DNA of 52,159 nucleotides. It comes from Candidatus Parcubacteria bacterium. GTDB lineage: Bacteria > Patescibacteriota > Minisyncoccia > Phycocordibacterales > UBA2100. The notes below the pieces were generated by a model. That model worked only from the letters and a program-made list of their open reading frames with translations. It was not told the DNA's origin and made no database searches. Positions 14,595 to 40,955 of the stretch are shown here, piece by piece (position 1 is the stretch's first letter; every line of letters begins with the position of its first letter). The stretch is taken from positions 1-52,159 of the forward strand of contig QZIY01000020.1 of assembly GCA_003599175.1 (NCBI GenBank). The letters run 5' to 3'. A program made the translations under genes and the position numbers.

Positions 14595-14630
14595 TTTCTC
14601 AAAGTTGTTAGCCGTGCTATGTTGCGAGAC

Positions 14631-15824
14631 ATGAAATCACAGGCTTCCCGGCGCCGTGTATCCGCACAAAAGCCATACCTTACCTTTGGCGCGCCCGATA
14701 TTGGAAAAGAAGAAATAGGTGCCGTTACGTCTGTCTTGCGATCTAGCTGGCTTGGCACGGGCCCAAAGACACATGATTTCGAGCATCTCGTCGGTAAGTA
14801 TACGGGGGCACAAGCTGCTTGCGCGCTCAATTCCGCAACCGCGGCTCTCCACCTTTCACTCGTCGGCCTTGGTATCGGAGCAGGCGATGAGGTGATTACG
14901 ACACCGCTTACCTTCTGTGCGAGCGCAAATGCGATCATCCATGCAGGAGCGACCCCGGTTTTCGTCGATGTCGAACGCGACTCCATGAACATCGATCCTA
15001 CAAAAATCGAGAAAGCGATCACGAAGAAAACCAAGGCGATATTGCCCGTCCATATGGCGGGGCGTCCCTGCAACATGGAGGCGATCAAGAAACTTGCCAG
15101 GAAGCACAAACTCTTCGTCATTGAAGATGCGGCGCATGCGCTTGGCGCTTCATACAAGGGCAAGAAGATCGGATCTCTCAGCGATGCGACCTGCTTTAGT
15201 TTTTATGTCACCAAAAATATTATCACTGGTGAAGGAGGCATGATTACAACCAATGATAAGCAATTTGCGGATCGCGTGCGCATTTTGTCGCTTCACGGCA
15301 TGTCGAAAGACGCTTGGAAGCGTTACAGTGCATCTGGCTACTCACACTATGAAGTTGTCGTACCCGGATTCAAATACAACCTCACCGATCTTGCTTCGGC
15401 AATCGGTATCGAACAAATGAAAAAGATCTCGCGATTCAACGCACGGCGGAAAAAGATTTGGGACATCTACTCCAAGGCATTTAAAGATTTGCCGGTGGTG
15501 CTCCCTGCGCCGATTCCCGCTGACATCGAGCATGCGCGACATCTCTATACGCTCTTGATCGATGAAAAGACCACGGGCCTTTCACGCGACGCCTTCATGC
15601 AGGCCTTGCATGAACGTGGAGTGGGGAGTGGTGTGCACTTCCGACCGGTTCATCTGCATGCATACTACCGCGAGCACTTCGGCTACAAAGAGGGTGATTT
15701 TCCACATGCGGAGTATATTGGCGAGCGAACCGTCTCCATTCCGTTTTCTTCTGCGCTTACCGACAGAGAAGTCTCGCGCGTGATCAAAGCAGTTCGAGAG
15801 GTTATCGAAGAACACCATGGCTAA
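14631..15824 (+). CDS. DegT/DnrJ/EryC1/StrS-family PLP sugar aminotransferase
   Basis: LGTGPKTHDFEHLVGKYTG; IEDAAHALGASYKGKKIGSLSDATCFSFYVTKNI (PLP Lys). Confidence 0.92.
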   Translation: MKSQASRRRVSAQKPYLTFGAPDIGKEEIGAVTSVLRSSWLGTGPKTHDFEHLVGKYTGAQAACALNSATAALHLSLVGLGIGAGDEVITTPLTFCASANAIIHAGATPVFVDVERDSMNIDPTKIEKAITKKTKAILPVHMAGRPCNMEAIKKLARKHKLFVIEDAAHALGASYKGKKIGSLSDATCFSFYVTKNIITGEGGMITTNDKQFADRVRILSLHGMSKDAWKRYSASGYSHYEVVVPGFKYNLTDLASAIGIEQMKKISRFNARRKKIWDIYSKAFKDLPVVLPAPIPADIEHARHLYTLLIDEKTTGLSRDAFMQALHERGVGSGVHFRPVHLHAYYREHFGYKEGDFPHAEYIGERTVSIPFSSALTDREVSRVIKAVREVIEEHHG

Positions 15825-16578
15825 CACGTACGCACTGAGTGGGAAACATATTCTTATTACGGGTGCCAACGGCCAACTTGGCAGTGGCCTCGCTGCTCGT
15901 TTTACACAAGAAGGCGCCATCGTGCATGTGTCCGATATACAGGAGATAATCACGCCAGATCTTGCAAAGGCACTCACTGCTCTCGGTGCCTCCTTCACCT
16001 ATCACAAGCTCGACATCTCCAAGGAATCCGATATCAAAAAAGTTGTCGACGAACTCCCGGCACTGAACGTACTCGTCAACAATGCGGGCATTGCCGTGTT
16101 CACACCTTTTGAAGAACGCACGCCGGAGGAACTTGATGCGGTGATGGATGTAAATATAAAAGGCACCATTCTTACGGCCAAAATATGTGCGGCGAAGATG
16201 ACGGGAAAAGACGGGAAAATTATCAATATCGGATCAATCTATGGCGTCGTGCCGGGTGACAAGCGCATCTATGGCGACTCGGGCCGCAACACCTCAGAAA
16301 TTTACGCTGCGACGAAGGCGGGTGTGATTCATCTCACCAAATACCTGGCTGCCTATCTTGCCGACAAGGGTATTACCGTCAATGCGGTTTCGCCGGGCGG
16401 CATTTTCAGTAATCAAAAAGATTTTTTTGTCGCCGAATACACCAACAAAACACCCCTCAAGCGGATGGCATCGGTCGACGATATCGCAAACGCCGTACTC
16501 TTTCTCGCCTCGAGTGATGCCGGCTATATCACCGGTCAAAACCTTGTTGTCGACGGCGGCTTTTCACTCAATCAATAG
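15817..16578 (+). CDS. short-chain dehydrogenase/reductase
   Basis: ILITGANGQLGSGLAARF; NVLVNNAGIAV; EIYAATKAGVIHLTKYLA; NAVSPGGI. Confidence 0.9.
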   Translation: MANTYALSGKHILITGANGQLGSGLAARFTQEGAIVHVSDIQEIITPDLAKALTALGASFTYHKLDISKESDIKKVVDELPALNVLVNNAGIAVFTPFEERTPEELDAVMDVNIKGTILTAKICAAKMTGKDGKIINIGSIYGVVPGDKRIYGDSGRNTSEIYAATKAGVIHLTKYLAAYLADKGITVNAVSPGGIFSNQKDFFVAEYTNKTPLKRMASVDDIANAVLFLASSDAGYITGQNLVVDGGFSLNQ

Positions 16579-16579
16579 T

Positions 16580-17407
16580 ATGTCGCTCGCAACACTCGGG
16601 ATCGGAAAAGGAAAAACATTTATCATCGCCGAAGTCGGTATCAATCACAATGGAGATTTCAAAAAAGCGGTCAAGCTGATCGACGAAGCGAAAAAAGCAG
16701 GCGCGGACGCGGTGAAGTTTCAGACCTATGTCACCGAAAAACGTGTTCCAAAAGATAGTCCAATCTACGGCATTTTGAAGCAATGCGAACTCTCGCAGGA
16801 GGATCAACGAAGGCTCAAAATACATGCGGATAAAAAAGGAATCCTCTTCTTCTCGACTCCCTTTGATGAAGAGAGCGTCACCTTTCTCAAAGATCTCAAT
16901 GTGCCGCTTCTCAAGATTGCGTCCTTTGATATCGTAAATCACAAGCTTCTTCGCGCGTGCGCGAAAACTAAGATCCCGATGATTATCTCGCGCGGCATGG
17001 CCTCACAATCGGAAATCGCTACTGCTGCCTCAATCTGCAAAAAGGTGGGCACCGAATTCGCGCTCTTGCACTGCGTTTCTGCCTATCCGGCACCCAAAAC
17101 ATCGGTGAATCTTCGCGCGATCGACGCTCTCAAAGCACAATACAAAGTCCCCGTCGGCTTTTCTGATCACACACTCGACATTGATGCATGCGTCTATGCG
17201 GTTGCCCGCGGCGCAGAGGTTTTGGAAAAGCACTTCACGCTTAATCGCAGAATGAAAGGGCCTGACCACCGGCTCTCGGCAGATCCGAAGATGCTCGCGC
17301 AGTTGGTGCAGCGTGTCCGAGAAGTAGAGGGGATGTTGGGCCGAGGTAAACTCGTGTCACTCCCTGTGGAGGCCGGTACTCGACAATATCGCCGCAAGAG
17401 TGTATGA
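16580..17407 (+). CDS. NeuB/SpsE-like nonulosonate synthase, no SAF domain
   Basis: FIIAEVGINHNGDFKKAVKLIDEAKKAGADAVKFQTY; LLHCVSAYPAP; GFSDHTLD; EKHFTL. Confidence 0.87.
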   Translation: MSLATLGIGKGKTFIIAEVGINHNGDFKKAVKLIDEAKKAGADAVKFQTYVTEKRVPKDSPIYGILKQCELSQEDQRRLKIHADKKGILFFSTPFDEESVTFLKDLNVPLLKIASFDIVNHKLLRACAKTKIPMIISRGMASQSEIATAASICKKVGTEFALLHCVSAYPAPKTSVNLRAIDALKAQYKVPVGFSDHTLDIDACVYAVARGAEVLEKHFTLNRRMKGPDHRLSADPKMLAQLVQRVREVEGMLGRGKLVSLPVEAGTRQYRRKSV

Positions 17408-18180
17408 AGTTTCAAATCGCGACGCCGCTCTCGACGATTTTTCAGAAGGCTTCTGTCGAAGAAAAAGATCGCATCATCGAACTCTCTGATGTTTTTGAAT
17501 ATCGTCACGGCATCGAAAGCGGTGTCGCTTCTGACAAGCCCCGCATCTATCACGCCGAGGAGAGCATCGTCGATCCCTGGAGTGATGCGGAGCTTGCAGA
17601 AATGAGCGACCGATTTTCGCGGGAGCACATCAAGTTCGTGACCTTCCACGTACCCACCTGCTACACGAAACCACCGATCAAGGATGGCTCGTACGTGCTA
17701 GGCGGTCGCGCGATGAGCGCAGATGAAATGCGAGCGAACGCGAAACAGAATGTGGAGCGCATGCGATCTGTCGGCGCACGCATCCCGATGGGCGCCGAGA
17801 ACAACAATTACTTCCCGACCGGCGCGTATGAAATCGTGACAGAGCCAGAATTTCTGACTGCCATCATGGAAGACAGCGGTTTCTCCTGGCTCCTCGATAT
17901 TGCACATGCGGAAATTACGGCGAAGCACACCAACGTGTCATTAGACGAGTATCTTTCAAAAATCGGTCTTGAACGCGTGGTACAGCTTCACTTGAGCGGC
18001 ATTACACGTACGCCGGAAGGGTATAAAGATTCGCATGGTCCCATGGCGGCGATCGACTGGGAGAACTTCGAGAAAATCGCAAAACAGTGCCACAACTTAC
18101 AGTATGTTACTCTCGAATACTACAAAGAACCAAGCGTCTTATTGCCGATGCTGGAGCGTCTCCATACGTATCAATCATGA
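17404..18180 (+). CDS. TIM-barrel protein, DUF692/MNIO-like
   Basis: GAENNNYFPTGAYEIVTEPEFLTAIMEDSGFSWLLDIAHAEITAKHTNVSLDEYLSKIGLERVVQLHLSG resembles the DUF692 (UPF0276) core. Confidence 0.6.
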   Translation: MKFQIATPLSTIFQKASVEEKDRIIELSDVFEYRHGIESGVASDKPRIYHAEESIVDPWSDAELAEMSDRFSREHIKFVTFHVPTCYTKPPIKDGSYVLGGRAMSADEMRANAKQNVERMRSVGARIPMGAENNNYFPTGAYEIVTEPEFLTAIMEDSGFSWLLDIAHAEITAKHTNVSLDEYLSKIGLERVVQLHLSGITRTPEGYKDSHGPMAAIDWENFEKIAKQCHNLQYVTLEYYKEPSVLLPMLERLHTYQS

Positions 18181-18905
18181 AAAAGCAATCGATCATCGAG
18201 TATCTTCCGTGGGACAGCGATTTCTTCAAGAAAAAAATCGCACGACTTTCACGCACATCGATAACCAAGCGACACATGAAGGAAGCAATCGCTGCAGCAA
18301 AAAAAGGAAACATCGAATGTCTCTACGCAACACTTGAAGCTGATGATCAGCGACATATCGAACTCGCAGAACAAAACGGTTTAGCACTTGTGGGGACGCG
18401 GGTAACGTACGCCTTCTCTGGTAAACTTCCCACCGCCAAATCTTCCGATGTCAGCATACGCGAGGGAACGGATGCCGATCGAGAAGATCTCTTGCGCCTC
18501 GCGGCGATCTTGAGTAGGGAAAGCCGCTTCGCGCGCGATCCGCACTTCGGTGCGACTGTTGCGAAGCGCTTGTATCGCACATGGATCGAAAAGCTTCTCT
18601 TTGATTCGTCGCCGCGCACAAGCGTACTCGTCGCCACGGTGAAAGGAAAGTTCGCCGGATTCATCGCCTCAAGCGTCCATGATGGCATGGCACATATCGA
18701 ACTTATCATCGTCGACGGCGCCTTTCGTGGCAAAGGAATCGGGAAACTCCTCATCGCTCAGAGCACCGCCCTGTATCGAAAACAAGGATTCACACAGATG
18801 CGCGTCTCCACCCAAGGCAGTAACATCGCAGCGCAGTCGCTCTACCAGTCGTGCGGTTTCCGTATCGCACGGATGGCGCTCGATTATCATAAGTGGTTCG
18901 TATGA
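18177..18905 (+). CDS. GNAT-family N-acetyltransferase (amino-sugar acetyltransferase-like)
   Basis: LPWDSDFFKKKIARL N-terminus as in RffC-like proteins; IVDGAFRGKGIGKLLIAQS; AQSLYQSCGF. Confidence 0.8.
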   Translation: MKKQSIIEYLPWDSDFFKKKIARLSRTSITKRHMKEAIAAAKKGNIECLYATLEADDQRHIELAEQNGLALVGTRVTYAFSGKLPTAKSSDVSIREGTDADREDLLRLAAILSRESRFARDPHFGATVAKRLYRTWIEKLLFDSSPRTSVLVATVKGKFAGFIASSVHDGMAHIELIIVDGAFRGKGIGKLLIAQSTALYRKQGFTQMRVSTQGSNIAAQSLYQSCGFRIARMALDYHKWFV

Positions 18906-19672
18906 GCACTATGGCGATCGTTCAGGCGCGCATGCAATCATCCCGTCTGCCAGGGAAGATTTTGTTACCACTTTCAGAAGAAAAAACGACACTCGAGTGC
19001 ATGCTCGATCGCGTGAAGCAGAGCGAGGAAATAGACCAGGTGGTCGTTGCCGTGAGCGATACTGAGGCAGATGCGCCGCTCCACCGCTTCCTCGAAAGAA
19101 TCGGACAGCCCTATGCTGTCGGAAGTGAAAACGATGTTTTGGACCGCTACTGGAGCGCAGCGAAAAAGTTTGCACATGTGGGAAGCACAATTGTGCGCCT
19201 TACATCGGATTGTCCGGTCATTGACCCCAAGGTTATCGACCGCGTGATTCGTTTCTACCAAGAAGGCCATTATGACTTTGTATCAAATTCGCTTGAACCC
19301 TATTCCTGGCCCGATGGTATGGATACCGAAGTATTTTCCTGCGAGCTTCTTGAACGTGCGGCAAAGGAAGCGACAAAGCCCTCGCATCGCGAGCATGTCA
19401 CGTTTTATTTCTGGCAGAACCCTGGCCTCTTCAAGATCGGCTACTTCAAAAACAGCTCCAACCAGTCCTCCTATCGGCTCACGCTTGATTACCCCGGGGA
19501 TTACGAAGTCTTGCGACGTATCCACAAGCATTTTGCTCCGCGTACCGATTTCACCGTTGCGGAGATTATTTCCTTTCTCGATGCCAATCCGGACGTTCGC
19601 GAGATGAATAGTGAGGCGGTCCGCAACGCTGGCTGGCAGAGCGCGCTCAAAAAAGATAGTATCCAAAAATAA
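18902..19672 (+). CDS. SpsF-like cytidylyltransferase
   Basis: MAIVQARMQSSRLPGKIL; GSENDVLDRYWSAAK; RLTSDCPVIDP; RLTLDYPGDYEVL. Confidence 0.87.
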   Translation: MSTMAIVQARMQSSRLPGKILLPLSEEKTTLECMLDRVKQSEEIDQVVVAVSDTEADAPLHRFLERIGQPYAVGSENDVLDRYWSAAKKFAHVGSTIVRLTSDCPVIDPKVIDRVIRFYQEGHYDFVSNSLEPYSWPDGMDTEVFSCELLERAAKEATKPSHREHVTFYFWQNPGLFKIGYFKNSSNQSSYRLTLDYPGDYEVLRRIHKHFAPRTDFTVAEIISFLDANPDVREMNSEAVRNAGWQSALKKDSIQK

Positions 19673-19678
19673 GCGTCT

Positions 19679-21019
19679 ATGAAAAAGGGGGAGATCAAGC
19701 TGACCAAGAATGGTACCGGCCAAAAGCTTTGGCGCAAGGCAAAAAAACTCATTCCCGGCGGCAACCAACTCCTTTCAAAGCGTATTGAGCGCTTCCTGCC
19801 GGAATACTGGCCTGCGTATCATGGCAGGGGAAAAGGGGCAGAGGTGTCGGATCTCGATGGCAACCGGTATCTCGACATGTGCATTATGGGCATCGGGACG
19901 CTCACGCTTGGCTACGCCGACCCTGATGTCGATCGCGCGGTGATCCAAACGATCAAAGGAGGATCTATGGGCACGTTGAATTCCCCGCAGGAGATTGAGC
20001 TTGCGGAGCTCCTGATAAAGCTTCATCCATGGGCACAGATGGTGCGTTATGCGCGAAGCGGAGGAGAATCCATGGCAATCGCGGCACGTATCGCGCGTGC
20101 ATATAGCGGCAAAGAAAAAATCGCATTCTGCGGCTACCACGGCTGGGCCGATTGGTACCTCGCAGCAAATCTTTCGAAGAAGGATGGGCTCGACGAGCAC
20201 CTGATGCGGGGTCTTGAGCCAAAAGGTGTGCCGCATGGACTGAAGGGCACTATTTTACCCTTTCGTTACAATCATTTTGAAGAACTAGAAAAGATTCTCA
20301 AAGAAAACGAGGGTGAGATCGCTGCGGTCATCATGGAGCCGGTGCACGGCGAAGAACCAACCGACGATTTCCTGAAAAAAATCCGCAACGTCACCAAGGA
20401 GCTCAGTATCCCCTTAGTGTTCGATGAAATCACGATGGGTTTTCGCCTCACCATGGGTGGCGCGCACCTCTTGTATGGCATCGAGCCGGACATGGCGATC
20501 TTTGCCAAAGGAATGAGCAATGGTTATCCAATGGCGGCGATCCTTGGTCGCGAGGAGATTATGCAGGCAGCGCAAGACACGTTTATCTCGAGCACGTACT
20601 GGACGGAAGCCATTGGCCCTACGGCGGCGCTTGCCACGATCAAGAAAATGAAAGACAAAAAAGTCCACAAGCACCTGCGGACTATCGGTGTTCTGGTGCG
20701 AGATGCGTGGCAGAGCGCATCGAAAAAACACGGCATCGAGATCGGCTTCAGTGGCCCTTTGTCGTTGCAGTTCTTCGCGTTTAAGGGGAAGGACGCAGGG
20801 GCATTGAAAACGCTCTTCGTGCAGGAGATGTTGCGCCGCGGTTTTCTTGCGTCGGATCTTTTTTATGCTTCGTACGCACACACCCCCGCGCACGTGAAAA
20901 AATACGCGGCAGCGATCGATGAAGTATTCGGTATCCTCAAGGAAGCACTCAATACTAACACCGTTGAAAAACGGCTCCTCGGCCCGATCGCCCGCGCTGG
21001 ATTCGAACGGCTCAATTAA
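19679..21019 (+). CDS. class III aminotransferase, glutamate-1-semialdehyde aminomutase-like
   Basis: DLDGNRYLDMCIMGIGTLTLGY; CGYHGWADWY; VFDEITMGFRL; FAKGMSNGYPMAAILG (PLP Lys). Confidence 0.87.
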   Translation: MKKGEIKLTKNGTGQKLWRKAKKLIPGGNQLLSKRIERFLPEYWPAYHGRGKGAEVSDLDGNRYLDMCIMGIGTLTLGYADPDVDRAVIQTIKGGSMGTLNSPQEIELAELLIKLHPWAQMVRYARSGGESMAIAARIARAYSGKEKIAFCGYHGWADWYLAANLSKKDGLDEHLMRGLEPKGVPHGLKGTILPFRYNHFEELEKILKENEGEIAAVIMEPVHGEEPTDDFLKKIRNVTKELSIPLVFDEITMGFRLTMGGAHLLYGIEPDMAIFAKGMSNGYPMAAILGREEIMQAAQDTFISSTYWTEAIGPTAALATIKKMKDKKVHKHLRTIGVLVRDAWQSASKKHGIEIGFSGPLSLQFFAFKGKDAGALKTLFVQEMLRRGFLASDLFYASYAHTPAHVKKYAAAIDEVFGILKEALNTNTVEKRLLGPIARAGFERLN

Positions 21020-21020
21020 C

Positions 21021-21368
21021 ATGGCAGGGGTGGGCATTGATATTGTTGAAGTTGCGCGGTTTCGCTCTCTTTGCACAAAAAAGGGTCGGACGAGCCAATT
21101 CGTTCATCGCGTGTTTAGCGATGAAGAACAATCATACTGCTTTGCGTTCAAAGACCCGGCACCGCATCTTGCCGGTATGTTTGCAGCGAAAGAAGCAATA
21201 CAAAAAGCGCTCGATCAATTCACTACCCCGCTCACGCAAGTAGAAGTGAGGCACAAAAAAAGTGGAAAACCAGAAATCTGGCTTCGCGGCAAACGGGCGA
21301 AGCATATTTTGATTTCCATATCGCACACTAAAAGTACCGCCTGTGCAGCTGCGTTTGCGACACGATAG
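21021..21368 (+). CDS. acpS: holo-[acyl-carrier-protein] synthase
   Basis: MAGVGIDIVEVARF; HLAGMFAAKEAIQKAL; SISHTKSTACAAAF. Confidence 0.9.
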   Translation: MAGVGIDIVEVARFRSLCTKKGRTSQFVHRVFSDEEQSYCFAFKDPAPHLAGMFAAKEAIQKALDQFTTPLTQVEVRHKKSGKPEIWLRGKRAKHILISISHTKSTACAAAFATR

Positions 21369-21372
21369 GATC

Positions 21373-22056
21373 TTACAGCGAGACGATTGTTTCTTGGGGG
21401 AGACGAATCAACGAACCTGACGGATACGAAGTACTGTCATTGCAAAGCCTTAAAATAATTGCTGCCACTTCCTCGGGCGTTGTCACCTGATCTGGCATTT
21501 TTGATTGCAAAAAAGTTGTCACTTTTTCGGGAAGATCACGATTCAAGCCACCAGACATGAATCCCGGCGCAACCGCATAGACGTTCCAGTCCTTTTCTTC
21601 GTGCGACAGCGTTTTTAGAAGTCCCTCAAGACCAGACTTGGCGGCTGCGTATGCGCCCACCGGTCCCGCATACTGGTGTGCTGCCTCGGATGTAATCCCG
21701 ATAAATGCCCCGCTTTTTCTCAGGTGTGGACGAATGGCTTTTGCAAGAAGATATGCACCGCGAGTCGCGGTTGCCATTGTAGAGTCGAATTGTTCAGCTG
21801 AAAGCGAAAGGAGCGGTACCCGATTAAGTTTTGGAGAGGCAGCATGTACGCATGCATCGACTCGTCCGTACCGAGCGATGATCTCGGCAATCGCGTCCTG
21901 TACCGATTGTTCGTTCGTTACATCGCAGTGAACACTGGGGTCTTGTGCGTTTAACGAGAGAGAAACAACATGCCACGCGCGCGCCTTAAAGAGGGTGCTG
22001 ATTGCGTTCCCGAGATATCCACTCCCTCCGGTAACGATAAGTACAGGTTCACTCAT
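21373..22056 (-). CDS. SDR, 3-oxoacyl-ACP reductase-like
   Basis: LIVTGGSGYLGNAIS; VHAASPKLNRV; YAAAKSGLEGLLKTLS; YAVAPGFM. Confidence 0.82.
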   Translation of the reverse strand: MSEPVLIVTGGSGYLGNAISTLFKARAWHVVSLSLNAQDPSVHCDVTNEQSVQDAIAEIIARYGRVDACVHAASPKLNRVPLLSLSAEQFDSTMATATRGAYLLAKAIRPHLRKSGAFIGITSEAAHQYAGPVGAYAAAKSGLEGLLKTLSHEEKDWNVYAVAPGFMSGGLNRDLPEKVTTFLQSKMPDQVTTPEEVAAIILRLCNDSTSYPSGSLIRLPQETIVSL

Positions 22057-22481
22057 ACGATTGTACGCACCTGGGAATGTACGACACCGGTAGCAACGAC
22101 ACGATCGCCGACACGCACGGTGATATCGATTGCAACAATGTTCGCCGACGTGCTTATGCTTGTCACGGCTCCGTCCACTTGAACGGTATCTCCGATGAAT
22201 ACCGGCTGTTTGAATTCAAGCGTTTCCTTCATCAAAAGCGCGTGTTTCCCCGGAAGCTGCATCCCGATGAGCTGCGAGACGAGTGCACCGAGAAAGAAAC
22301 CGTGTACGACACGTTTGCCAAACGGCGTATCAGTGGCGTAGGCGTCATCGACGTGGAGCGGATTCATATCGCCGCTCAGCGCGGCAAACGCGTCGATATC
22401 GGCTGCAGCCACAGTGCGCGTCAGACGTGCTGTATCGCCGATGCGAATATCATCCAGGGTGAGTTCTTGAACGCCCGTCAT
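22053..22481 (-). CDS. MaoC-like / (R)-specific enoyl hydratase
   Basis: FAALSGDMNPLHVDDAYATDTPFGKRVVHGFFLGALVSQLIG hot-dog hydratase motif. Confidence 0.88.
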   Translation of the reverse strand: MTGVQELTLDDIRIGDTARLTRTVAAADIDAFAALSGDMNPLHVDDAYATDTPFGKRVVHGFFLGALVSQLIGMQLPGKHALLMKETLEFKQPVFIGDTVQVDGAVTSISTSANIVAIDITVRVGDRVVATGVVHSQVRTIV

Positions 22482-22708
22482 AGCTCTATGCCTTTTTTAC
22501 GGAGCGCTCCCATGACATCGCCCAGGGACTGCATCGAAAGTACCTCCTGCATGTCGAAGACAACGCCATATTCTTTTTCAAGGTCTGCGATAAAGAGCAA
22601 GTAATTCATGGAATCCCACTCCGGTACATCCTTTGGCGTTAACTCTGGTCGGATGTCAGCCGCCGGAATCTTGAGTTGTTCGGTTACTATTATTTCGAAT
22701 GATTTCAT
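22478..22708 (-). CDS. acyl carrier protein
   Basis: VPEWDSMNYLLFIADLEKEYGV: phosphopantetheine Ser in DSM motif; start M at 22708 or 22723. Confidence 0.87.
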   Translation of the reverse strand: MKSFEIIVTEQLKIPAADIRPELTPKDVPEWDSMNYLLFIADLEKEYGVVFDMQEVLSMQSLGDVMGALRKKGIEL

Positions 22709-23739
22709 ACGAGTGTGACCCATGATGGCATGACAGCGGCATCGACCGCTACCGTATTCCCCGTAAAATTCTTTTCGATAAATATTTTAGCCGGCATATT
22801 TTTTTCGGTTGGCGTGAAGATGATGTCGAGGGTTTCGGCTCCTTCCGCGCGAGCACTTTCTGCGATCGCGGCAAGAAACGCTTCTTCGACGCCTCGGCCA
22901 ATGACACGGCAGGAAAGGAGCAGTGATTCAATGTGCCAAACCGGCGCGAGCTTTTGCACGAGCGCAAATGCGGTAATGCCGTAATCGCCGAATTTGTCGG
23001 TGACACGTGCACACAAGACAGCGTAATGCGGGTCACGAATAAACGCATCGATCTCCTCGACGGTGAGTGGTTTTTTGTTGGTATTGAACTGATTTGTTTT
23101 TTCGGTGAGTTGCGAAAGTCGCGCCACTTGGGCGGACGCATCTTTCAGAATTTCAACACGAAATCCAAGGCTTTTGAGAAATGCATCTCGATCAGTGAAT
23201 TGTTTTTCCGCCTCGCGGCGCAATCGTTCCGTCACGTACATATTGCCGCGCATTTTGTCTTCGTCGGTGATGACGTTGGCTTCGAAATAGGGGAGTGTAT
23301 GCAAAAACTGTGCATATTCTCTCGGATCCACCGGCAACTCCGGCGTCTCTACCTCAGGTACGAATTGTCGCATCGCGGCGCGGTTTTCTGGATTGTCGTC
23401 GAGGAAAACCATCGAGTCGAGACCAATGTTGAGTTCTTGGGCGATTGAGCGAATGTTTTCGGTCTTATCTGACCAATTGATGCGCATGGCTGCGAAATGG
23501 TTGCGTTTCAAAATCATGTTGGGATTAGCATCGATCACTTCCAAAGCGTCGCTTTCGTTGTTCGCACTCGCGATCGCCAGAATGATGCCGCGGTGATTGA
23601 GGTCGAGGAGTGCCTGCTGAAATGCGACGAAGTACGCCCCCGGTGGTGTGAGGCCAAGTGCTATGCCACGGGGACCATCTTCTCCAACAACCCCGCCCCA
23701 GAGCGTGTTGTCGAGATCAAGGACGATGCATTTTTTCAT
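22705..23739 (-). CDS. FkbH-like HAD-IIIC protein (acyl/glyceryl-ACP-forming family)
   Basis: CIVLDLDNTLWGGVVGEDG; FLDDNPENRAAMR; LTEKTNQFN; C-terminal GNAT-like part. Confidence 0.92.
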   Translation of the reverse strand: MKKCIVLDLDNTLWGGVVGEDGPRGIALGLTPPGAYFVAFQQALLDLNHRGIILAIASANNESDALEVIDANPNMILKRNHFAAMRINWSDKTENIRSIAQELNIGLDSMVFLDDNPENRAAMRQFVPEVETPELPVDPREYAQFLHTLPYFEANVITDEDKMRGNMYVTERLRREAEKQFTDRDAFLKSLGFRVEILKDASAQVARLSQLTEKTNQFNTNKKPLTVEEIDAFIRDPHYAVLCARVTDKFGDYGITAFALVQKLAPVWHIESLLLSCRVIGRGVEEAFLAAIAESARAEGAETLDIIFTPTEKNMPAKIFIEKNFTGNTVAVDAAVMPSWVTLV

Positions 23740-23793
23740 AGGGACTCGTACAGTATCGTTATACTACTTGAATTTACTCGCCCGCTCAACGAA

Positions 23794-24606
23794 CTACACA
23801 TTGCCTCGCAACTTGTCGATCGAGTGCTGTGCGAGGAGGAAGTACGGGTCTTCATCTAAAAGTCGCATGGCGATGTCATACAGGTCGGCAGCGCGCACCA
23901 CCTTAATGGTGCCGTTTCCGAACGTTTTCTCGTGGAGCGCGTGCGAGGCGCGCAGGTGTGGTTCGATTTTTTGCATCTCGTTGTCTACCTCTTGCTCGAG
24001 TGGTCGTGCGAAATACGTGCACCAATCCTTTCGCGTCTCATTGCCCTCGATAATGCTGCCCGTAAACGTTTTAAGGAATCGATAGGGGACTTTGTGCATT
24101 TGTTCGACATGAATGAGAAACGTGCAGTATTCAAAATCGACGCCGAACATAACGATTTTCGCATTGAGTTTGCGAAGATTGTCGAAGACGGATCCTTTGC
24201 CAAAGGTGTCCTTGCTTATGGTGAGTACCTCGTTCGTACGCTTGCCCCATGCGGCGATAGAGTGCATTGGCTGCAAAGAGCGCTTCACGCCGGGTTGCTG
24301 CCTAAAAAATTCGGACAGTGACCCGACGGTCGATCGGCTCTTTTGAACATCGAACGCTTCGCCTTTCCCCCAGCTAAAGCTGAAGGCGGGGAAGGTGACC
24401 GTACCGTCTTCGCCAACACTTTCTTTAAACGTCTCAATGAGCGCCGACAAAAAAGTATCTTTGTTTGGCGTTGCCAACTTACCGAACACTGCGATATCGG
24501 AGTGGATAAACAGCATATCGCCTTCTGCAACGCCGACTTCGCGCAAGGCGCGTAGCAAATCACTGTCAGTGAGATCTTCCTCATCGCACGTATAGAGAAG
24601 GGTCAT
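23794..24606 (-). CDS. AAC(3)/YokD-family N-acyltransferase
   Basis: GDMLFIHSDIAVFG; GEDGTVTFPAFSFSWGKGEAFD; RSLQPMHSIAAWG; FGVDFEYCTFLIHVEQM. Confidence 0.83.
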   Translation of the reverse strand: MTLLYTCDEEDLTDSDLLRALREVGVAEGDMLFIHSDIAVFGKLATPNKDTFLSALIETFKESVGEDGTVTFPAFSFSWGKGEAFDVQKSRSTVGSLSEFFRQQPGVKRSLQPMHSIAAWGKRTNEVLTISKDTFGKGSVFDNLRKLNAKIVMFGVDFEYCTFLIHVEQMHKVPYRFLKTFTGSIIEGNETRKDWCTYFARPLEQEVDNEMQKIEPHLRASHALHEKTFGNGTIKVVRAADLYDIAMRLLDEDPYFLLAQHSIDKLRGNV

Positions 24607-24728
24607 ATTTTTATTAAAGAGACTACGCCCGAACGGCAGAAAACTCAAGCTGATCAGGAGCATAGTACAAAAATGTTCGCCATAATGGCGAATGGCGGGA
24701 AGGCGTGGGGCACGCTATAGTAGCACCC

Positions 24729-26530: not shown

Positions 26531-26857
26531 ATGGATCTTGCGATGTCACTCGGTTGGCTTGCCACGTTTCTTTTTACAATCTGCTATGTGCCGCAGATTA
26601 TCAAGACTGTGAAAACACAGTCGGTGAGCGGTCTTAGTTTTTGGCTTCTTTTTATACAATTCATCGCCAACATAGTCGCATTTTGTTATGCAACGCTCAT
26701 CGCGCAGCCCCCGCTTCAAATCAAGTATATACTCGCGCTCTTTTTTCTTCTGATATGTATGGGCGTATATATTCGTGTGTATCGAAAAAATCCACCGCAG
26801 CGACAAATCTCATCGGCAGAATCGCTTCCCGATGCACCCGATCAAGTGGCCCTCTAA
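26531..26857 (+). CDS. PQ-loop repeat (SemiSWEET-like) membrane protein
   Basis: LATFLFTICYVPQIIKTVKTQSVSGLSFWLLFIQFIANI. Confidence 0.8.
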   Translation: MDLAMSLGWLATFLFTICYVPQIIKTVKTQSVSGLSFWLLFIQFIANIVAFCYATLIAQPPLQIKYILALFFLLICMGVYIRVYRKNPPQRQISSAESLPDAPDQVAL

Positions 26858-27375
26858 ATCAGTTTCTTCGCTCGCATTTCAGTCCAGAGCTTTTCGATAC
26901 TTTTATGCACGCTTGTTTCAGCCGAAATTCTGATATCTGGTCGCTCCGGTCGCTCGTACGGGCGATTGTCGCTCATACCGATGATCTCCATCTCACCCCT
27001 TTTCCCTTTTGCGTACAATCCCTTCACGTCGCGCTCGATACAAATGGAAAGCGGTGTATCTACAAAAACTTCAATATATTGATCACCTAAAAGAGCTCTC
27101 GAGTTTGCGCGATCTTCCGCATAAGGTGAAATCGCTGAAACAAGCACGAAATCATTGTCCGCGCTTTGTTTGAGTGCAAGTTCTGCGAGAAGGCGATTAT
27201 TCTTGCGTATATCGTCGCGCGAGAATCCGAGCGGTGTTGCATGTTTTTCACGGACATCATCGCCGTCGACGAGGCTAACGATTTTACGCGACGCTTCCAG
27301 TCGCGTTTTGAGCGCGCGGGCGAGCGTGGTTTTACCTGAACCAGACAGACCAGTGAACCACAAGATCCGACTCAT
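26854..27375 (-). CDS. cysC: adenylylsulfate (APS) kinase
   Basis: LWFTGLSGSGKTTLARAL; VDGDDVRE; GFSRDDIRKNNRL; EVFVDTPLSICIERDVKGLYAKG. Confidence 0.92.
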   Translation of the reverse strand: MSRILWFTGLSGSGKTTLARALKTRLEASRKIVSLVDGDDVREKHATPLGFSRDDIRKNNRLLAELALKQSADNDFVLVSAISPYAEDRANSRALLGDQYIEVFVDTPLSICIERDVKGLYAKGKRGEMEIIGMSDNRPYERPERPDIRISAETSVHKSIEKLWTEMRAKKLI

Positions 27376-27379
27376 AGTT

Positions 27380-29638
27380 TTATTCGACAAATACTTTTTT
27401 GCCGCGCTTGATCATGTCGATGATTGCTGAGGAAATTTCCGGACGCATAAACCATGCAGGTGGTTTTTTACCTGCAAGAAGCATCGCACGTACTTGTGTG
27501 CCACTGATGTTCAGTTTTTCGCTTTCTTTGTGTCTTAATCGCTGTTCGCCTTCGTGAATATGTTTTTTTTCCTTGGACGAATAAAATACTTGATTGAAAC
27601 GCACTGGAGATATATTGAGGTCGGGAAAACGATCGAAAATTTCGTGCGCTGCTGCCGGAGGATAGAACGACCCGATACCTGTATGATCTCGTCCGACGAT
27701 AAAATGACTGCAGCCGAAATTTTGACGGCACAGAGCAGTAAAAAGTGCTTCGCGCGGACCAGCGTAGCGTGAATAACTCGCGAAGGTCCCGAGTATAGCG
27801 CGTCCTTTGGGGTAGAATTGTTCACTCATGAGTGCATACGCAGCGATGATGGCCTCGGCCTCAAAATCACCTTTTTTCTTTTTGCCAATAACAGGATGAA
27901 TAAAAAGTCCATCTGCCGAAGAACGGCGAAGCGCTTCGAGCTGAATAAATTCGTGCCCACGATGAATTGCGTTCCTCGTGTGAAATGCAACGATCCGTGA
28001 CCATCCTCGTTCTGCAAATAAGCGTCGTGTCTGCCGCGGCGTGAGCTCGTATTTTTTGGTCGGCGAATCATATCGTCTGTAGAGTGTCACCGTGCCGCCT
28101 AAAAAGACAGGCCTCATCGCCAGTACCATGGCGACACCCGGGTGTGAGGGGTCAGTTGTCCCGTACACATGCTGCGCGAAATCTTTTTTATCGTACGCAT
28201 ATTTTTCTTTCAGATGGAGCACGGCTACAACGGTTCCTTTCTTGTTTTTGAGCGCGATATCAGATCCTTCTGTAAGACGCGCCGCTTCTTCGGTACTGAC
28301 ATCAAGTACAATCGGCATCGGCCATATGGCACCGCTTGGCATCCGCATATGCTTGAGCACAGAATCCAATTCTTTGTGCGTAAGAAAACCTTCGAGCGGA
28401 CTGAAGGTGCCGATGGCGATTTGCTCAATATCCATATGCTGTTCATCGGTAATCTGTATCGATTGCAATTTCCCATCGGGGGTGAGACCAAATGCAGCTT
28501 GCCGATCCACAAGCGTGCCACCATTAGGGGGAATGAGCATCTCGCCCGGATTACTGGTATGCAGATAGTTTGCCTTGTCGAGTGTGACGACGTATCGAGG
28601 ACGTGGTCGCGCATCTTCTGGCACGCTCTCTGCTTGATGAATCAATTTATTCAGCGTGTTAACCACCTCAATCGGATAGTCGCCGATCGCTGTTTCCGCT
28701 GCAAGTGTAACGCCGAAGGCGCCATCGAGGATCGTCTGCACCGTGTCATGTACCTCGGCGCGCGTAGGACTTTGTTTATGTACCATTGACTCAAGAAAAT
28801 TCGTCGCGACGAAGACTCCCTTGTTTTTTTTGCGCGCTCGGTCGATGATGATTTTTTGCGCAAAGGGGATTTTCTCGATCGGTACCTCGCGGCTCAAATC
28901 GCCGCGGTCGATCAGAAGGTAGTCAGATTTTTCTATGATCGCATCGAGTTGCTCGAGTGCTTCTGTGCACTCGATCTTCGAAATGATTTTCATGCGGCTC
29001 TTTGTCCGCTTTCGCACGAGATCCACTGCTTCTGGCGATCGCACGAACGAAACAGCAATGTGATCGACGCCTTCTTTGAGCGCTATTGCGATCGCATCTT
29101 CGTCTTTTGGTGAGAGTGTCGGAAGTTCAAAATTTTTTTTGGATGCCGTGTCGATGACAACACCTTTGTTGGCTCCCATGATGCCACCGGATAGTACCGT
29201 TGATACCACATACCCCTTCTGTGCGAGCATCGAAGTCTCGGTCACGCGCAGGACTACAGAATTGAAATCGATATATACGAGATCACCTTCAGCCAACTGT
29301 GGTACGATGGATTCAGGTTTGAGACAGATGCGTGTACTGTTGCCCCGAATCTGCTTTTGATAAATTTTGATCCTCGCGCCTTCCTCTAAGCGGATCTCGC
29401 CTCGTTCGTTTGCCCCGTTGCGCACCTGCGACCCTTCAGTATCCAATATGAAAGGTATGCCTACGTCGCGCGCAAGTTTCATAAAATAACCCTGATCTGC
29501 AATGCTTGAGTGCGACATATTGACACGCACGAAACCGACGCCCCGGTCTTTGAGCGCACGTAGATGATCTTTGGTATGAGTCGATGGCCCCAGCGTCACC
29601 ACGATCTTGGTTTTCTTGGGAGTCGGTCTGATTTTCAT
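27380..29638 (-). CDS. in-frame fusion: pyruvate kinase-like N-terminal domain plus ATP sulfurylase
   Basis: PK (about aa 1-340): VRVNMSHS, IISKIE, DRGDLSREVPIEKIPFAQK, ATNFLESM, SPTRAEVHDTVQTILDG, AAETAIGDYPIEVV. ATPS (about aa 345-752): LIPPNGGTLVDR, AIGTFSPLEGFLTHKE, FHTRNAIHRGHE, VGRDHTGIGSFY. Confidence 0.92.
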   Translation of the reverse strand: MKIRPTPKKTKIVVTLGPSTHTKDHLRALKDRGVGFVRVNMSHSSIADQGYFMKLARDVGIPFILDTEGSQVRNGANERGEIRLEEGARIKIYQKQIRGNSTRICLKPESIVPQLAEGDLVYIDFNSVVLRVTETSMLAQKGYVVSTVLSGGIMGANKGVVIDTASKKNFELPTLSPKDEDAIAIALKEGVDHIAVSFVRSPEAVDLVRKRTKSRMKIISKIECTEALEQLDAIIEKSDYLLIDRGDLSREVPIEKIPFAQKIIIDRARKKNKGVFVATNFLESMVHKQSPTRAEVHDTVQTILDGAFGVTLAAETAIGDYPIEVVNTLNKLIHQAESVPEDARPRPRYVVTLDKANYLHTSNPGEMLIPPNGGTLVDRQAAFGLTPDGKLQSIQITDEQHMDIEQIAIGTFSPLEGFLTHKELDSVLKHMRMPSGAIWPMPIVLDVSTEEAARLTEGSDIALKNKKGTVVAVLHLKEKYAYDKKDFAQHVYGTTDPSHPGVAMVLAMRPVFLGGTVTLYRRYDSPTKKYELTPRQTRRLFAERGWSRIVAFHTRNAIHRGHEFIQLEALRRSSADGLFIHPVIGKKKKGDFEAEAIIAAYALMSEQFYPKGRAILGTFASYSRYAGPREALFTALCRQNFGCSHFIVGRDHTGIGSFYPPAAAHEIFDRFPDLNISPVRFNQVFYSSKEKKHIHEGEQRLRHKESEKLNISGTQVRAMLLAGKKPPAWFMRPEISSAIIDMIKRGKKVFVE

Positions 29639-29730
29639 ACGAGATGCATGAAGGGGAGGTTTTTGTCCCGGACATCGAGGAATATACTATTATTGGAGAC
29701 ACGCGTCTACGGTATGATACAGTCCCGTGT

Positions 29731-30585
29731 ATGCGCCGCCTCATTTTTTTTCACCTTGCGAAAACGGGAGGAATCACCCTGCGACGTATCGCTGAGCGCC
29801 ACCTTCCCGAGGGTTACGCGTTCTACAATCTCTCGCTCAATCAAGCCGACAGCAAGGAGCTTGAGGAATTTCGAGCGCTACCCGAAACTAAAAAAGAGAA
29901 GATTGCCGTCCTTGCAGGCCACATGCCTTTTGGCATGGATAAAGAGTTGAGCGGGCCGTCAGATTACATCACGATGCTCCGAAACCCGCTCGACATCGTC
30001 GTATCGGAGTATTATTACCTGCACAACAGTCCGCTTAAAGATTGGCACCGCGCGATCGCGGATTTCAAGGCGATGAGTCTCGGTGATTTCGCACGGAGCG
30101 GATTCAATATAACGACGAACCATCAGACGCGCGTTCTTGCCAGAATATGGTCCACTTTTTTGGAACGATCCGTTCCCGTCGATGAAGCGGCATTTTCACG
30201 GGCGAAAGAATCCCTTCGGCGTGACTTTCTCTGCGTTGGCATCACGGAGCGTTTCGACGAGTCGCTCTTGGTCATGAAAAGGCGGCTCGGGTGGCGTAGT
30301 ATTTATTATTTTAGAGAAAACAAAACGCCGGGACGCAGGCCAACTAAAAGTATCGCACCGGGAGATCGTGATGCTATTCTTGAGCGCAATCATATTGACC
30401 TTGCACTATGGAAGTTTGCGAATGAGCTTTTGGATAAGGAAATCGAAGATTATGGGCCAAATTTTATGCGTGATTTGCGCCATTTTCAGCGGCGTAATTT
30501 TTGGTACCAGAAAGCGCGTCGTGTCGCCCTCTTGGCACGTGGTTTGATGTTCCGCCTTAAGAAACTTACGCACCTGCATGCTTGA
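29731..30585 (+). CDS. sulfotransferase family protein
   Basis: LIFFHLAKTGGITLRRI (5'-PSB-like loop) and MLRNPLDIVVSEYYYL (3'-PB-like). Confidence 0.83.
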   Translation: MRRLIFFHLAKTGGITLRRIAERHLPEGYAFYNLSLNQADSKELEEFRALPETKKEKIAVLAGHMPFGMDKELSGPSDYITMLRNPLDIVVSEYYYLHNSPLKDWHRAIADFKAMSLGDFARSGFNITTNHQTRVLARIWSTFLERSVPVDEAAFSRAKESLRRDFLCVGITERFDESLLVMKRRLGWRSIYYFRENKTPGRRPTKSIAPGDRDAILERNHIDLALWKFANELLDKEIEDYGPNFMRDLRHFQRRNFWYQKARRVALLARGLMFRLKKLTHLHA

Positions 30586-35017: not shown

Positions 35018-35719
35018 ATGAACATCATTGCGCTCATCCTCGCCCGCGGCGGCAGCAAGCGGTTTCCGGGGAAAAATCTATACCCGCTGCTCGGAAAGCC
35101 CCTGATTGCACATTCTATCATCGCTGCGAAAGCGACGACGAAGATCGATCGGGTGATCGTCTCGACCGACAGCGAGGAAATTGCCGCGGTGGCGCGGGAA
35201 TATACCGCGGAAGTCCCATTCATGCGCCCCTCGGAACTTGCGAGCGATTCCGCAAAGGCGATTGACGTCGTGCGTCACATCATCGGGATGCTCGAACAAG
35301 ACGGTTATAAGGCCGGTTACGTTGTCACATTACAGCCAACAACACCCGTAATCGAACCGGCGCAGATCGATGCGGCGATCGAGCTTGCGATCGAGAAAAA
35401 TGCAGAGTCTGTCGTGAACGTATCGGAAATAGATACCATCAATCACCCGTACAACATCCGCGAAATTCGAGAGGATGGCACCGCGCATTTCTGGCAAGAA
35501 AAATTGCATTACGAGGCGCTCGGCAAAGATAGACCGAAGTTTTATCACGCTGCCAATCTGTGGCTATCGAGTTACGACACGGTGATGAAAGAGGGGAAAT
35601 TTGAAGGAGAAAAAAATTATCCCATCATCGTGCCGCCGATTTATTCGAGCGATATCGATTTTAAGGAAGATCTGGAACGACTTGAAGCCATCCTTTCCAG
35701 CTGGAAGAAAAACGGCTAG
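35018..35719 (+). CDS. neuA: CMP-sialate/legionaminate cytidylyltransferase
   Basis: IALILARGGSKRFPGKNLYPLLGKPLIAHSI; VIVSTDSEEIAAVA; VVTLQPTTPV. Confidence 0.88.
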   Translation: MNIIALILARGGSKRFPGKNLYPLLGKPLIAHSIIAAKATTKIDRVIVSTDSEEIAAVAREYTAEVPFMRPSELASDSAKAIDVVRHIIGMLEQDGYKAGYVVTLQPTTPVIEPAQIDAAIELAIEKNAESVVNVSEIDTINHPYNIREIREDGTAHFWQEKLHYEALGKDRPKFYHAANLWLSSYDTVMKEGKFEGEKNYPIIVPPIYSSDIDFKEDLERLEAILSSWKKNG

Positions 35720-35729
35720 TATCCAGACA

Positions 35730-36878
35730 ATGGCAGATAAGCGGACGATTGCGGTACTCACGGGGAAGCGCGGCGGATTCGGCGCGATGATTACGATGGT
35801 CGAAGCGCTGAAACGTGATCCAAAAATCAGCGTTGAGCCGATTACTACCGACATGCACCTGAACCCTTTTTTTGGTGATACGGTCAAGGAAGTTGAGAGA
35901 TCATATGGCCCGACCCATCGCGTACCGACCGATCAAAAAGACGACACGAGTGAAGAGCGAGCACAGACACTTGCGCGCACCATGGCGGGCATGGTCGATA
36001 TACTCTCGAAAATTAAACCTGATGTTTTGGTGACGTTGGGGGATCGCGGCGAAGTTTTGGCGGCAGCAAACGCCGCGCTCGAACTCAATATTCCAGTCGC
36101 CCACATCCTTGGAGGCGATACTGCAGGAAACCGAGATGGCGTACGTATCCATGCCATCACCAAACTTGCGCATTTGCATTTTCCAGCCAACAAAGACGCA
36201 TACAAACGCATCTTGAAATTAGGCGAAGAGAAATGGCGCGTCTTCGACTTTGGCTCTACCTATATCGATCTTGCGGTGCAGAAAAAGTTTACGCCGAATA
36301 CAGAAGTGCGGCGGAAGTACAACATCAAACCAGATGAGCCGTACCTTCTCTGCATTCAGCATCCGACGACGCTCGACGAAACCCGCTCATATGACGAAGC
36401 AAAGACGGTATACGAGGGGCTGAAGCGCACGGGTATGCGTACGATCATTGTCTGGCCATGCAGTGATCAAGGGTATTCACTCGTCCTCAAGGCACTCGAT
36501 GAGTATAAAAATGTGCCGCAATTCAGTATTCACAAAAATATCGAAGTACAGGATTTTTGGGGACTCATGGATGGTGCCTCTGCGATGGTAGGGAATTCTT
36601 CGAGCGGTCTCATGGAAACACCATACTTCAATCTGCCGTCCGTAACGGTCGGACACCGGCAAGACGGTCGAGCGCGAGACACCAATGGTATTGTGGTAGC
36701 TGAGCCGACGCCTGAAAAGGTCGAGAAGGCCGTTCTGAGAGCGATCTCACCCGCATTTAAGAAAAAGGTAAAAAATCATTTCGTCTTTGGCAAAGGAAAT
36801 GCGGGAGAGAAGATTGCTCATGTTCTCAAAACTATTCCACTGGGTGAAAAATTACTTCGCAAAAAAATAACGTTCTAA
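35730..36878 (+). CDS. neuC: UDP-GlcNAc 2-epimerase (hydrolysing type)
   Basis: PDVLVTLGDRGEVLAAANAALELNIPVAHILGGDTAGNRD; CIQHPTTLDE; MVGNSSSGLMETPYFNLPSVTVGHRQDGR. Confidence 0.87.
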   Translation: MADKRTIAVLTGKRGGFGAMITMVEALKRDPKISVEPITTDMHLNPFFGDTVKEVERSYGPTHRVPTDQKDDTSEERAQTLARTMAGMVDILSKIKPDVLVTLGDRGEVLAAANAALELNIPVAHILGGDTAGNRDGVRIHAITKLAHLHFPANKDAYKRILKLGEEKWRVFDFGSTYIDLAVQKKFTPNTEVRRKYNIKPDEPYLLCIQHPTTLDETRSYDEAKTVYEGLKRTGMRTIIVWPCSDQGYSLVLKALDEYKNVPQFSIHKNIEVQDFWGLMDGASAMVGNSSSGLMETPYFNLPSVTVGHRQDGRARDTNGIVVAEPTPEKVEKAVLRAISPAFKKKVKNHFVFGKGNAGEKIAHVLKTIPLGEKLLRKKITF

Positions 36879-36883
36879 AGATT

Positions 36884-37810
36884 ATGAAAGTTTTAGTCAC
36901 TGGAGGCGCAGGATTTATCGGGTCGCATGTCGTCGACAAGCTCCTTTCGGATGGACACTCGGTTGCCGTCGTCGATGATTTTTCGTCGGGCAATGAGCTG
37001 AATGTCCGCAAAGGCGTGACGTATCACCGCACCAATCTCAATGATCCGAAACTTGCGGACGTGCTGAGAGAGGAAAAACCGGAAGCGATTTGTCATTTGG
37101 CGGCAAAGACCAATATGCGCGAATCGCTCGACGATCCATTTTCGGATATCGAAGGCAATGTGCGCGGACTCGTGGCGCTTCTCGAACTGGCTACTAAAAA
37201 GTACCCGATCAAAAAGTTTGTCTTTTCCTGCACCGGCGGCGCACTCTATGGTGATCCGGAGTATGTGCCGGTCGATGAAAACCATCCCACACGCCCTACT
37301 TCGCCTTACGGCATCTCCAAACTCTCCGGAGAAAAGTATCTCTATTATTACAACGCCGTGCACAATCTTCCGAGCATCTCTCTTCGCTACAGTAATGTGT
37401 ACGGACCGCGCAATGAACGCAAAAAACACAACGGCGCTGTCACGGTGTTCATCCAGCGAGTCCTCAAGGGAGAGCCAATCAAGATCAACGGCAGTGGTGA
37501 GCAAACGCGCGACTTTATCTTCGTCGAAGATGTTGCCCGTGCAAATGCGGCAGCTGTATCCGCAGATATCAAAGGTGCTGATGTGTGCAATATAAGCGGC
37601 GGCTCCGAGACGAGCGTGAATAGCATGATCGAGATCATCGAAAAACACGCAGGCAAAAAAGCGCAGGTCGAGCATGCGCCCGAAATCAAAGGCGAAATCA
37701 TGCGAAGTTTCATGTCGAATCAGAAAGCAAAGGATGTATTGGGGTGGTCGCCGAGCGCGAGTGTGGACGACGGTATCAAAAAGACTGTCGAGTACTTCGT
37801 AACGCTATAA
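36884..37810 (+). CDS. NAD-dependent sugar epimerase/dehydratase (GalE-like)
   Basis: VLVTGGAGFIGSHVVDKLL; HLAAKTNMRES; GALYGDPEYVPVDE; YGISKLSGEKYL. Confidence 0.9.
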   Translation: MKVLVTGGAGFIGSHVVDKLLSDGHSVAVVDDFSSGNELNVRKGVTYHRTNLNDPKLADVLREEKPEAICHLAAKTNMRESLDDPFSDIEGNVRGLVALLELATKKYPIKKFVFSCTGGALYGDPEYVPVDENHPTRPTSPYGISKLSGEKYLYYYNAVHNLPSISLRYSNVYGPRNERKKHNGAVTVFIQRVLKGEPIKINGSGEQTRDFIFVEDVARANAAAVSADIKGADVCNISGGSETSVNSMIEIIEKHAGKKAQVEHAPEIKGEIMRSFMSNQKAKDVLGWSPSASVDDGIKKTVEYFVTL

Positions 37811-37818
37811 CAAAGAGA

Positions 37819-37845
37819 AAGAGGATCGGCAGAGCCGATCCTCTT
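37819..37845. terminator. bidirectional terminator-like hairpin between convergent genes
   Basis: AAGAGGATCGGC-AGA-GCCGATCCTCTT perfect 12-bp stem. Confidence 0.8.
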
Positions 37846-37864
37846 ATGAAATGAACTGATTTTG

Positions 37865-38908: not shown

Positions 38909-39038
38909 CTGCCTCTCCTATCAGGCAGGGAACTCAACTCAATATTTTATACAACATTTTGTATGAAAATCAAATTTTCAGCAAATTACATCATGAACAT
39001 TTGATGATTGAGAAAACGTTTGATACATTTATGTCTCT

Positions 39039-39719: not shown

Positions 39720-39737
39720 AGCGGTAGTGTTCAGACC

Positions 39738-40919: not shown

Positions 40920-40955
40920 CTTTCTTTTTTTTTAGGAGACCGCTAGACTGCCGGT

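Follow-up and report, generated by a model that had tools for sequence, protein, structure and literature searches.

The stretch of Patescibacteria DNA analysed here (the window, 52,159 nt, to which all gene coordinates below refer) carries at positions 21021-24606 a compact cassette of six genes organized around a stand-alone acyl carrier protein (ACP). Five of them are encoded on the minus strand and are transcribed in the order AAC(3)-like, FkbH, ACP, MaoC and short-chain dehydrogenase/reductase (SDR). The first gene (23794-24606, with a possible alternative ATG upstream at 24663) encodes an AAC(3)-fold (Antibiotic_NAT) acyltransferase, which matches PF02522 with 136 bits against a cut-off of 25. 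It is separated by 54 bp from the gene of a short-form FkbH protein (22705-23739), made of a HAD phosphatase and a GNAT-like transferase and covering nearly the whole TIGR01686 model (300 bits, cut-off 147). The ACP gene (22478-22723) overlaps the FkbH gene by 19 bp and is followed, each time with an overlap of 4 bp, by a MaoC hot-dog hydratase/dehydratase (22053-22481; PF01575, 81 bits) and an SDR ketoreductase (21373-22056; adh_short_C2, 116 bits). The sixth gene, on the plus strand (21021-21368), encodes an AcpS-type phosphopantetheinyl transferase that is predicted to activate the ACP (ACPS PF01648, 54 bits; TIGR00556, 68 bits). It is convergent with the SDR gene and ends 4 bp from its stop. 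The six genes, their positions and their families had been described in an initial annotation, and are borne out by the open reading frames (ORFs) and the profile scores; the overlaps among the last four minus-strand genes and the convergent acpS likewise agree with the coordinates.

The motifs are intact in all of these proteins except the AAC(3). FkbH keeps the HAD-IIIC phosphatase motifs (DLDNTLWGG, Ser, Lys, DD) and the Cys of the transferase domain (SCRVIGR), so the loss of FkbH catalytic residues that would have spoken against the initial annotation is not seen. The two halves of its predicted model (pLDDT 91) match the BF1531 phosphatase and GNAT folds. The N-terminal domain of the FkbH proteins of ~550-610 aa is missing, and the short FkbH proteins (about 345 aa) of the candidate phyla radiation (CPR) form a single clade in the FkbH tree (SH-aLRT 100). 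FkbH-like enzymes are held to form glyceryl-ACP from 1,3-bisphosphoglycerate (1,3-BPG), and glyceryl-ACP occurs in the tetronate and methoxymalonyl pathways (PMC7489565). The presence of a phosphoglycerate kinase in the window genome, together with the overlapping ACP gene, is consistent with the loading of a glyceryl group from 1,3-BPG by FkbH. For the ACP, the Pfam score is low, barely exceeding the cut-off (PP-binding, 21.5 bits; cut-off 20.8). Matches to its CPR homologues nevertheless reach E-values as low as 4e-28, and the phosphopantetheine Ser of its WDS motif (WDSM) is invariant in 25 relatives. MaoC has kept its Asp-His motif (GDMNPLH for GDxNPLH), with both residues retained in all relatives aligned, and its closest PDB match is the (R)-specific enoyl-CoA hydratase 1iq6 (E 9e-27). 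The SDR retains the nucleotide motif TGGSGYLG and the S-Y-K triad (S in ITSEA; YAAAK).

Relatives of the cassette were gathered by scanning a genome collection with the window FkbH and by two genome searches. FkbH is uncommon, being found in 13 of 397 genomes of the order and 2 of 380 of the phylum. The series AcpS-FkbH-ACP-MaoC-SDR recurs in the same order at ten other distinct Patescibacteria loci (L004, L005, L006, L008, L009, L010, L012, L104, L105 and L108), which bears out the conservation expected in the initial annotation. The genes are mostly contiguous; in two of the ten a further gene, encoding a GNAT (L009) or a methyltransferase (L010), lies inside the cassette. Loci L102, L103, L106 and L107 apparently belong to the same genomes as L005, L006, L008 and L011, their gene lengths being identical. 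Among loci with FkbH and ACP, MaoC and SDR are both present in 16 and both absent from 12, MaoC alone occurs in three and SDR alone in two (Fisher p = 9e-5, a value that ignores the kinship of the loci; the trait undergoes eight changes along the FkbH tree). The recurring gene order and this co-occurrence indicate that the arrangement is not due to chance. The four genes are found together in Patescibacteria, Bacteroidota, Omnitrophota, Nitrospinota, Hyphomicrobiales, Pelagibacteraceae and on a Subdoligranulum plasmid, and a plasmid of Erwinia rhapontici carries a broken cluster annotated AAC(3)-FkbH-MaoC-SDR-ACP.

No ketoacyl-ACP synthase (PF00109) was found in the window genome (921 kb, 88% complete) at E <= 1, a search that was positive in 14 of 14 control genomes, nor in eight other genomes with a short-FkbH cassette at E <= 0.1. 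A FabH-C match in the window genome (E 0.05, under the cut-off) was rejected as chance, and the PF00109 matches in the genomes of L020 and L022 are short, partial and probably thiolase-like. In eight of the nine cassette genomes, including that of the window, the cassette ACP is the sole PP-binding match; the ninth has two more, both under the cut-off. Since there is no ketoacyl-ACP synthase and the cassette ACP is the only credible one, this ACP does not serve fatty acids or polyketides. The earlier suggestion of an ACP used outside lipid synthesis thus holds up well in these nine genomes, mostly metagenome-assembled genomes (MAGs), none of which revealed a complete fatty-acid or polyketide synthase that could claim the carrier. 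The system is also self-contained, as had been proposed: it brings an AcpS of its own, recurs as a conserved unit and is embedded in a surface-glycan locus.

The substrate of MaoC and SDR is suggested by their fusions and by polyketide synthases (PKSs). Single proteins combining MaoC and SDR lie near FkbH and ACP in L024, L028, L031, L034 and L077, and a MaoC:AAC(3) fusion adjoins FkbH-ACP in L015. Two trans-AT type PKSs, one from a Streptomyces anulatus plasmid and one from an Ensifer canadensis plasmid (L093:3856-12999 and L094:3817-12951), have a first gene that reads MaoC, a second hot-dog segment, SDR, FkbH and ACP, followed by the first ketosynthase (KS). Because MaoC and SDR stand before that KS, the dehydratase and the reductase would most simply act on the FkbH-loaded unit, and lactyl starters are predicted for both PKSs. 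The record OY725877 was taken in through its FkbH match. The top plasmid matches of a tblastn search with MaoC:SDR were mostly ordinary neighbouring MaoC and SDR genes and were set aside, and a Burkholderia FkbH plasmid locus proved to be a ketosynthase/FabH cluster without MaoC-SDR.

The closest known system is the lactyl-S-ACP starter of FR901464 and lankacidin, in whose biosynthesis bifunctional dehydratase-ketoreductase (DH-KR) proteins turn glyceryl-S-ACP into lactyl-S-ACP (review, PMC4765723). An FkbH forming glyceryl-ACP, an ACP, a dehydratase and a ketoreductase are shared with it, and that these precede any condensation agrees with the gene content, the host without KS and the PKS modules. 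The MaoC:SDR fusions match the DH-KR arrangement, a likeness drawn from layout and published description. In contrast, the CPR cassette has discrete genes, its own AcpS, no PKS and apparently a surface sugar as its endpoint. The initial annotation had MaoC and SDR interconverting hydroxy-, enoyl- and ketoacyl-ACP. This is beta-carbon chemistry and requires a condensing enzyme. As none was detected in the host, and as MaoC, SDR and FkbH precede the first KS in the PKSs, the pair more likely acts on glyceryl-ACP, giving pyruvyl-ACP and then lactyl-ACP.

From these genes we infer the following pathway. AcpS would attach phosphopantetheine to the ACP, after which FkbH would dephosphorylate 1,3-BPG and transfer the glyceryl group to the carrier. 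MaoC would dehydrate glyceryl-ACP to the enol of pyruvyl-ACP, and the SDR would reduce the alpha-ketone of the latter, yielding lactyl-ACP. Finally, an exchangeable acyltransferase would pass the group on, to an amino sugar in the case of AAC(3) or GNAT and to a hydroxyl in the case of the MBOAT of other genomes. The pyruvyl-ACP intermediate follows from general chemical reasoning, and because the route passes from glyceryl-ACP through pyruvyl-ACP to lactyl-ACP, it would need neither malonyl-CoA nor a ketosynthase. The order of the steps, FkbH, then MaoC, then SDR, predicts that gene content should be nested, and this is nearly the case: loci carry FkbH and ACP, or MaoC in addition (L011, L015, L020, L110), or both MaoC and SDR, with two exceptions, L007, whose SDR gene runs off the contig, and L019, which carries FabH. 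On balance, it is somewhat more probable than not that the genes form a cassette with a carrier protein of its own, supplied by glycolysis instead of fatty-acid synthesis, and that its product is a C3 hydroxyacyl (lactyl) group for the decoration of surface glycans. The small hydroxyacyl or glyceryl group foreseen in the initial annotation is thereby sharpened to lactyl and its self-contained ACP system is retained, while the case for transfer by the window AAC(3) is weakened. A known parallel exists for each enzyme and step; no report of a lactyl-ACP cassette for surface glycans, or of this combination in a bacterium without fatty-acid synthesis, was found in the literature searched.

The genes neighbouring the cassette encode a DegT aminotransferase, an SDR, a NeuB-like protein, a TIM barrel, a WecD-like GNAT acyltransferase (18087-18905, plus strand; NF008212, 102 bits, under the equivalog cut-off; Acetyltransf_1, 65 bits), an SpsF/CMP-sugar synthetase-like cytidylyltransferase (18893-19672, plus strand; CTP_transf_3, 84 bits) and a class-III (GSA-like) aminotransferase (19679-21019, plus strand; Aminotran_3, 150 bits). 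The last, a plausible source of the sugar amine, has homologues near fkbH in L034 and L036 too. Taken together, these genes speak for an amino nonulosonate-like sugar activated with CMP. In the window, the acceptor would probably be a CMP- or NDP-amino sugar made by them. The acpS gene starts 1 bp past the end of the class-III aminotransferase gene and therefore closes the plus-strand sugar operon in the window genome, whereas most other CPR cassettes have acpS immediately before fkbH as part of one operon.

The candidate for the final transfer differs among loci. An AAC(3) with DUF4910 comes after the SDR in L005, an AAC(3) after MaoC in L110, and a GNAT lies within the L009 operon. An MBOAT and a following gene are found beside the cassette in four loci (L006:10450-11910, L012:10451-11989, L010:6197-7798 on the minus strand and L011:2702-4147), which suggests O-acylation at the cell surface in a Dlt/Alg-like manner, fed by the FkbH-loaded ACP. 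In DltABCD D-alanylation, a carrier protein and an MBOAT supply the cell surface with a small acyl group, the amino acid being loaded by an adenylating enzyme. The four MBOAT loci resemble this system, unlike the window, where no MBOAT is adjacent. Since the partners vary in this way (AAC(3), GNAT, MBOAT), the cassette may be a donor module that can serve several acceptors.

Several points weigh against the lactyl pathway as proposed. In L007, MaoC is missing although an SDR gene, cut short by the end of the contig, is present, and the methyltransferase in the L010 operon implies that products may differ among genomes. The literature searched yielded no account linking genes of this kind to N-lactoyl sugars on the cell surface. 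The incompleteness of the window genome and the predominance of MAGs among the cassette genomes are a caveat on the absence of ketoacyl synthase. Finally, the AAC(3) motif of the window reads TFLIHVE and not TxxHxxE: Ile165 takes the place of the catalytic His, with Glu168 kept and a His at 166. The His/Glu dyad of this motif is completely conserved in the set of Antibiotic_NAT proteins analysed previously (PMC8956665), and the His is kept in all other AAC(3) homologues aligned here, both cassette-linked and order-level. A second common His (RSxHP) is Gln in the window protein, at a position that varies in the Erwinia protein too.

Loss of the catalytic His makes the role of AAC(3) in the window doubtful, and here the presumption of intact catalytic residues fails. 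The protein shares 43% identity with the L005 enzyme, and its predicted model (pLDDT 86) has an intact fold, with TM-scores of 0.7-0.8 to AAC(3) structures. The window copy would be either inactive or mechanistically altered, or its function would have passed to the WecD-like GNAT encoded in the neighbouring sugar operon. Transfer to an amino sugar by AAC(3), as first proposed, is thus not established for the window enzyme, even though the neighbourhood is the same in relatives whose AAC(3) is intact. It is a real possibility, if short of an even one, that the copy in the window is undergoing decay or has acquired another function, with a working ACP half, an inactive AAC(3), and transfer by the GNAT or none at all. 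This would be compatible with lactyl-ACP formation but would limit it. Of the AAC(3) proteins examined, that of the window alone carries the substitution, solved structures include active-site mutants (H168A in meta-AAC0038, H183A/G in BA2930), and acpS lies within the operon that holds the GNAT. Decay is less easily reconciled with the intact ORF, fold and Glu168 of AAC(3), the adjacent His166, the position of the gene still beside fkbH, and the intact motifs of FkbH, ACP, MaoC and SDR.

Glyceroyl is a known decoration of Campylobacter pseudaminic acid (PMC3068675), and the FkbH-loaded glyceryl group might be transferred unchanged or O-methylated, as may occur for the di-O-methylglyceroyl of Campylobacter, leaving MaoC and SDR to serve another step or thioester. 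The Cj1295-cj1302 flagellin locus of Campylobacter jejuni, like Clostridium acetobutylicum CA_C2195-CA_C2199, combines an FkbH domain and an N-acetyltransferase in a surface-glycan locus, and the Clostridium locus has an ACP as well (PMC4000134). Cj1295 is required for di-O-methylglyceroyl-pseudaminic acid (PMC3068675), and the nearby cj1302 has the FkbH domain (PMC7099621). A comparable set of FkbH, ACP, AAC(3) and DUF4910 without MaoC or SDR is found in L014, and the methyltransferase of L010 would also suit O-methylation. In contrast to the cassette, no MaoC and SDR pair is reported for the Campylobacter and Clostridium loci in the literature searched, and in many lineages MaoC and SDR are fused together, or MaoC to AAC(3), adjoining FkbH and ACP. 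DUF4910 (the Cj1295 family, PF16254), present in L005, L014, L015, L033 and L036, was not found in the window genome by profile search. Glyceroyl decoration is an unlikely alternative. As a separate observation, DUF4910 stands beside AAC(3) and FkbH-ACP in unrelated phyla (L005:11177-12475, L015:5253-6533, L033:9306-10655).

Decoration with a 3-hydroxyacyl group such as 3-hydroxybutanoyl, in which MaoC and SDR would carry out beta-carbon chemistry on an acyl group reaching the ACP from CoA or from the host, is quite improbable. MaoC resembles PhaJ (1iq6) and the SDR resembles FabG. In addition, a dedicated ACP and a reductase, both encoded among the wfp genes, are proposed to take part in the synthesis of 3,5-dihydroxyhexanoyl-Qui4N in Flavobacterium psychrophilum (PMC6519341). 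However, that system has two ketoacyl-ACP synthases, no FkbH is named in it, and its transferase is PglD-like. None of the nine cassette genomes yielded a ketoacyl synthase, just a single locus (L031) among the 16 four-gene loci has such a gene nearby, and FkbH would be left without a role. A methoxymalonyl-ACP-like extender pathway, which has FkbH and a stand-alone ACP in common with the cassette (PMC7489565), can practically be dismissed, as it requires two dehydrogenases oxidising the C3 hydroxyl, an O-methyltransferase, and a PKS that consumes the extender unit, whereas MaoC is foreign to it and the host shows no ketosynthase.

Some further features of the window and of related loci are worth recording. 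The window holds two separate NeuB-containing sugar-acid gene sets, each with its own cytidylyltransferase (14619-21019 and 35018-41978). The TIM-barrel protein of the first (17404-18180, plus strand) matches the MbnB/TglH/ChrH enzymes, which modify ribosomally synthesized and post-translationally modified peptides (48 bits), and is perhaps a sugar isomerase-like relative. A 752-aa protein (27380-29638, minus strand) fuses a pyruvate kinase barrel, an odd partner, to PUA_2 and ATP-sulfurylase domains. It adjoins an APS kinase (26854-27390). A Gal-3-O-sulfotransferase-like protein is encoded at 29644-30585 and a protein with a PAPS-reductase domain at 39039-39719. Together these genes make a sulfated glycan likely. 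Outside the window, AcpS, a 600-aa FkbH and ACP lie close together on a contig labelled Nanoarchaeota (L013:6912-9791), representing an archaeal ACP system or a binning error. The cassette locus L007 comes from an nzgw MAG (isolate nzgw472), and a study of gene transfer in Patescibacteria that used nzgw-named MAGs lists acpP among the transferred genes (PMC12455944), which may be an ACP of the cassette kind and not a lipid one.

CPR bacteria have been described as unable to make membrane lipids, some Parcubacteria having FAS-II homologues without the ACP machinery (PMC7242380). The window presents the converse case, as AcpS and ACP are present, a condensing enzyme was not detected and a clear alternative job can be proposed. 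Finding ACP or AcpS among the genes of a CPR bacterium should thus not be taken on its own as a sign of lipid synthesis. There is about an even chance that, in this Patescibacteria lineage without fatty-acid synthesis, the sole ACP makes a lactyl thioester from a glycolytic intermediate for surface decoration, as a portable module serving AAC(3), GNAT or MBOAT, with the enzyme set of some PKS loading modules. Such a cassette would offer a route by which glycolysis feeds a modification of the surface in bacteria that are presumed to live on their hosts, and would tie glycan decoration to polyketide starter chemistry.

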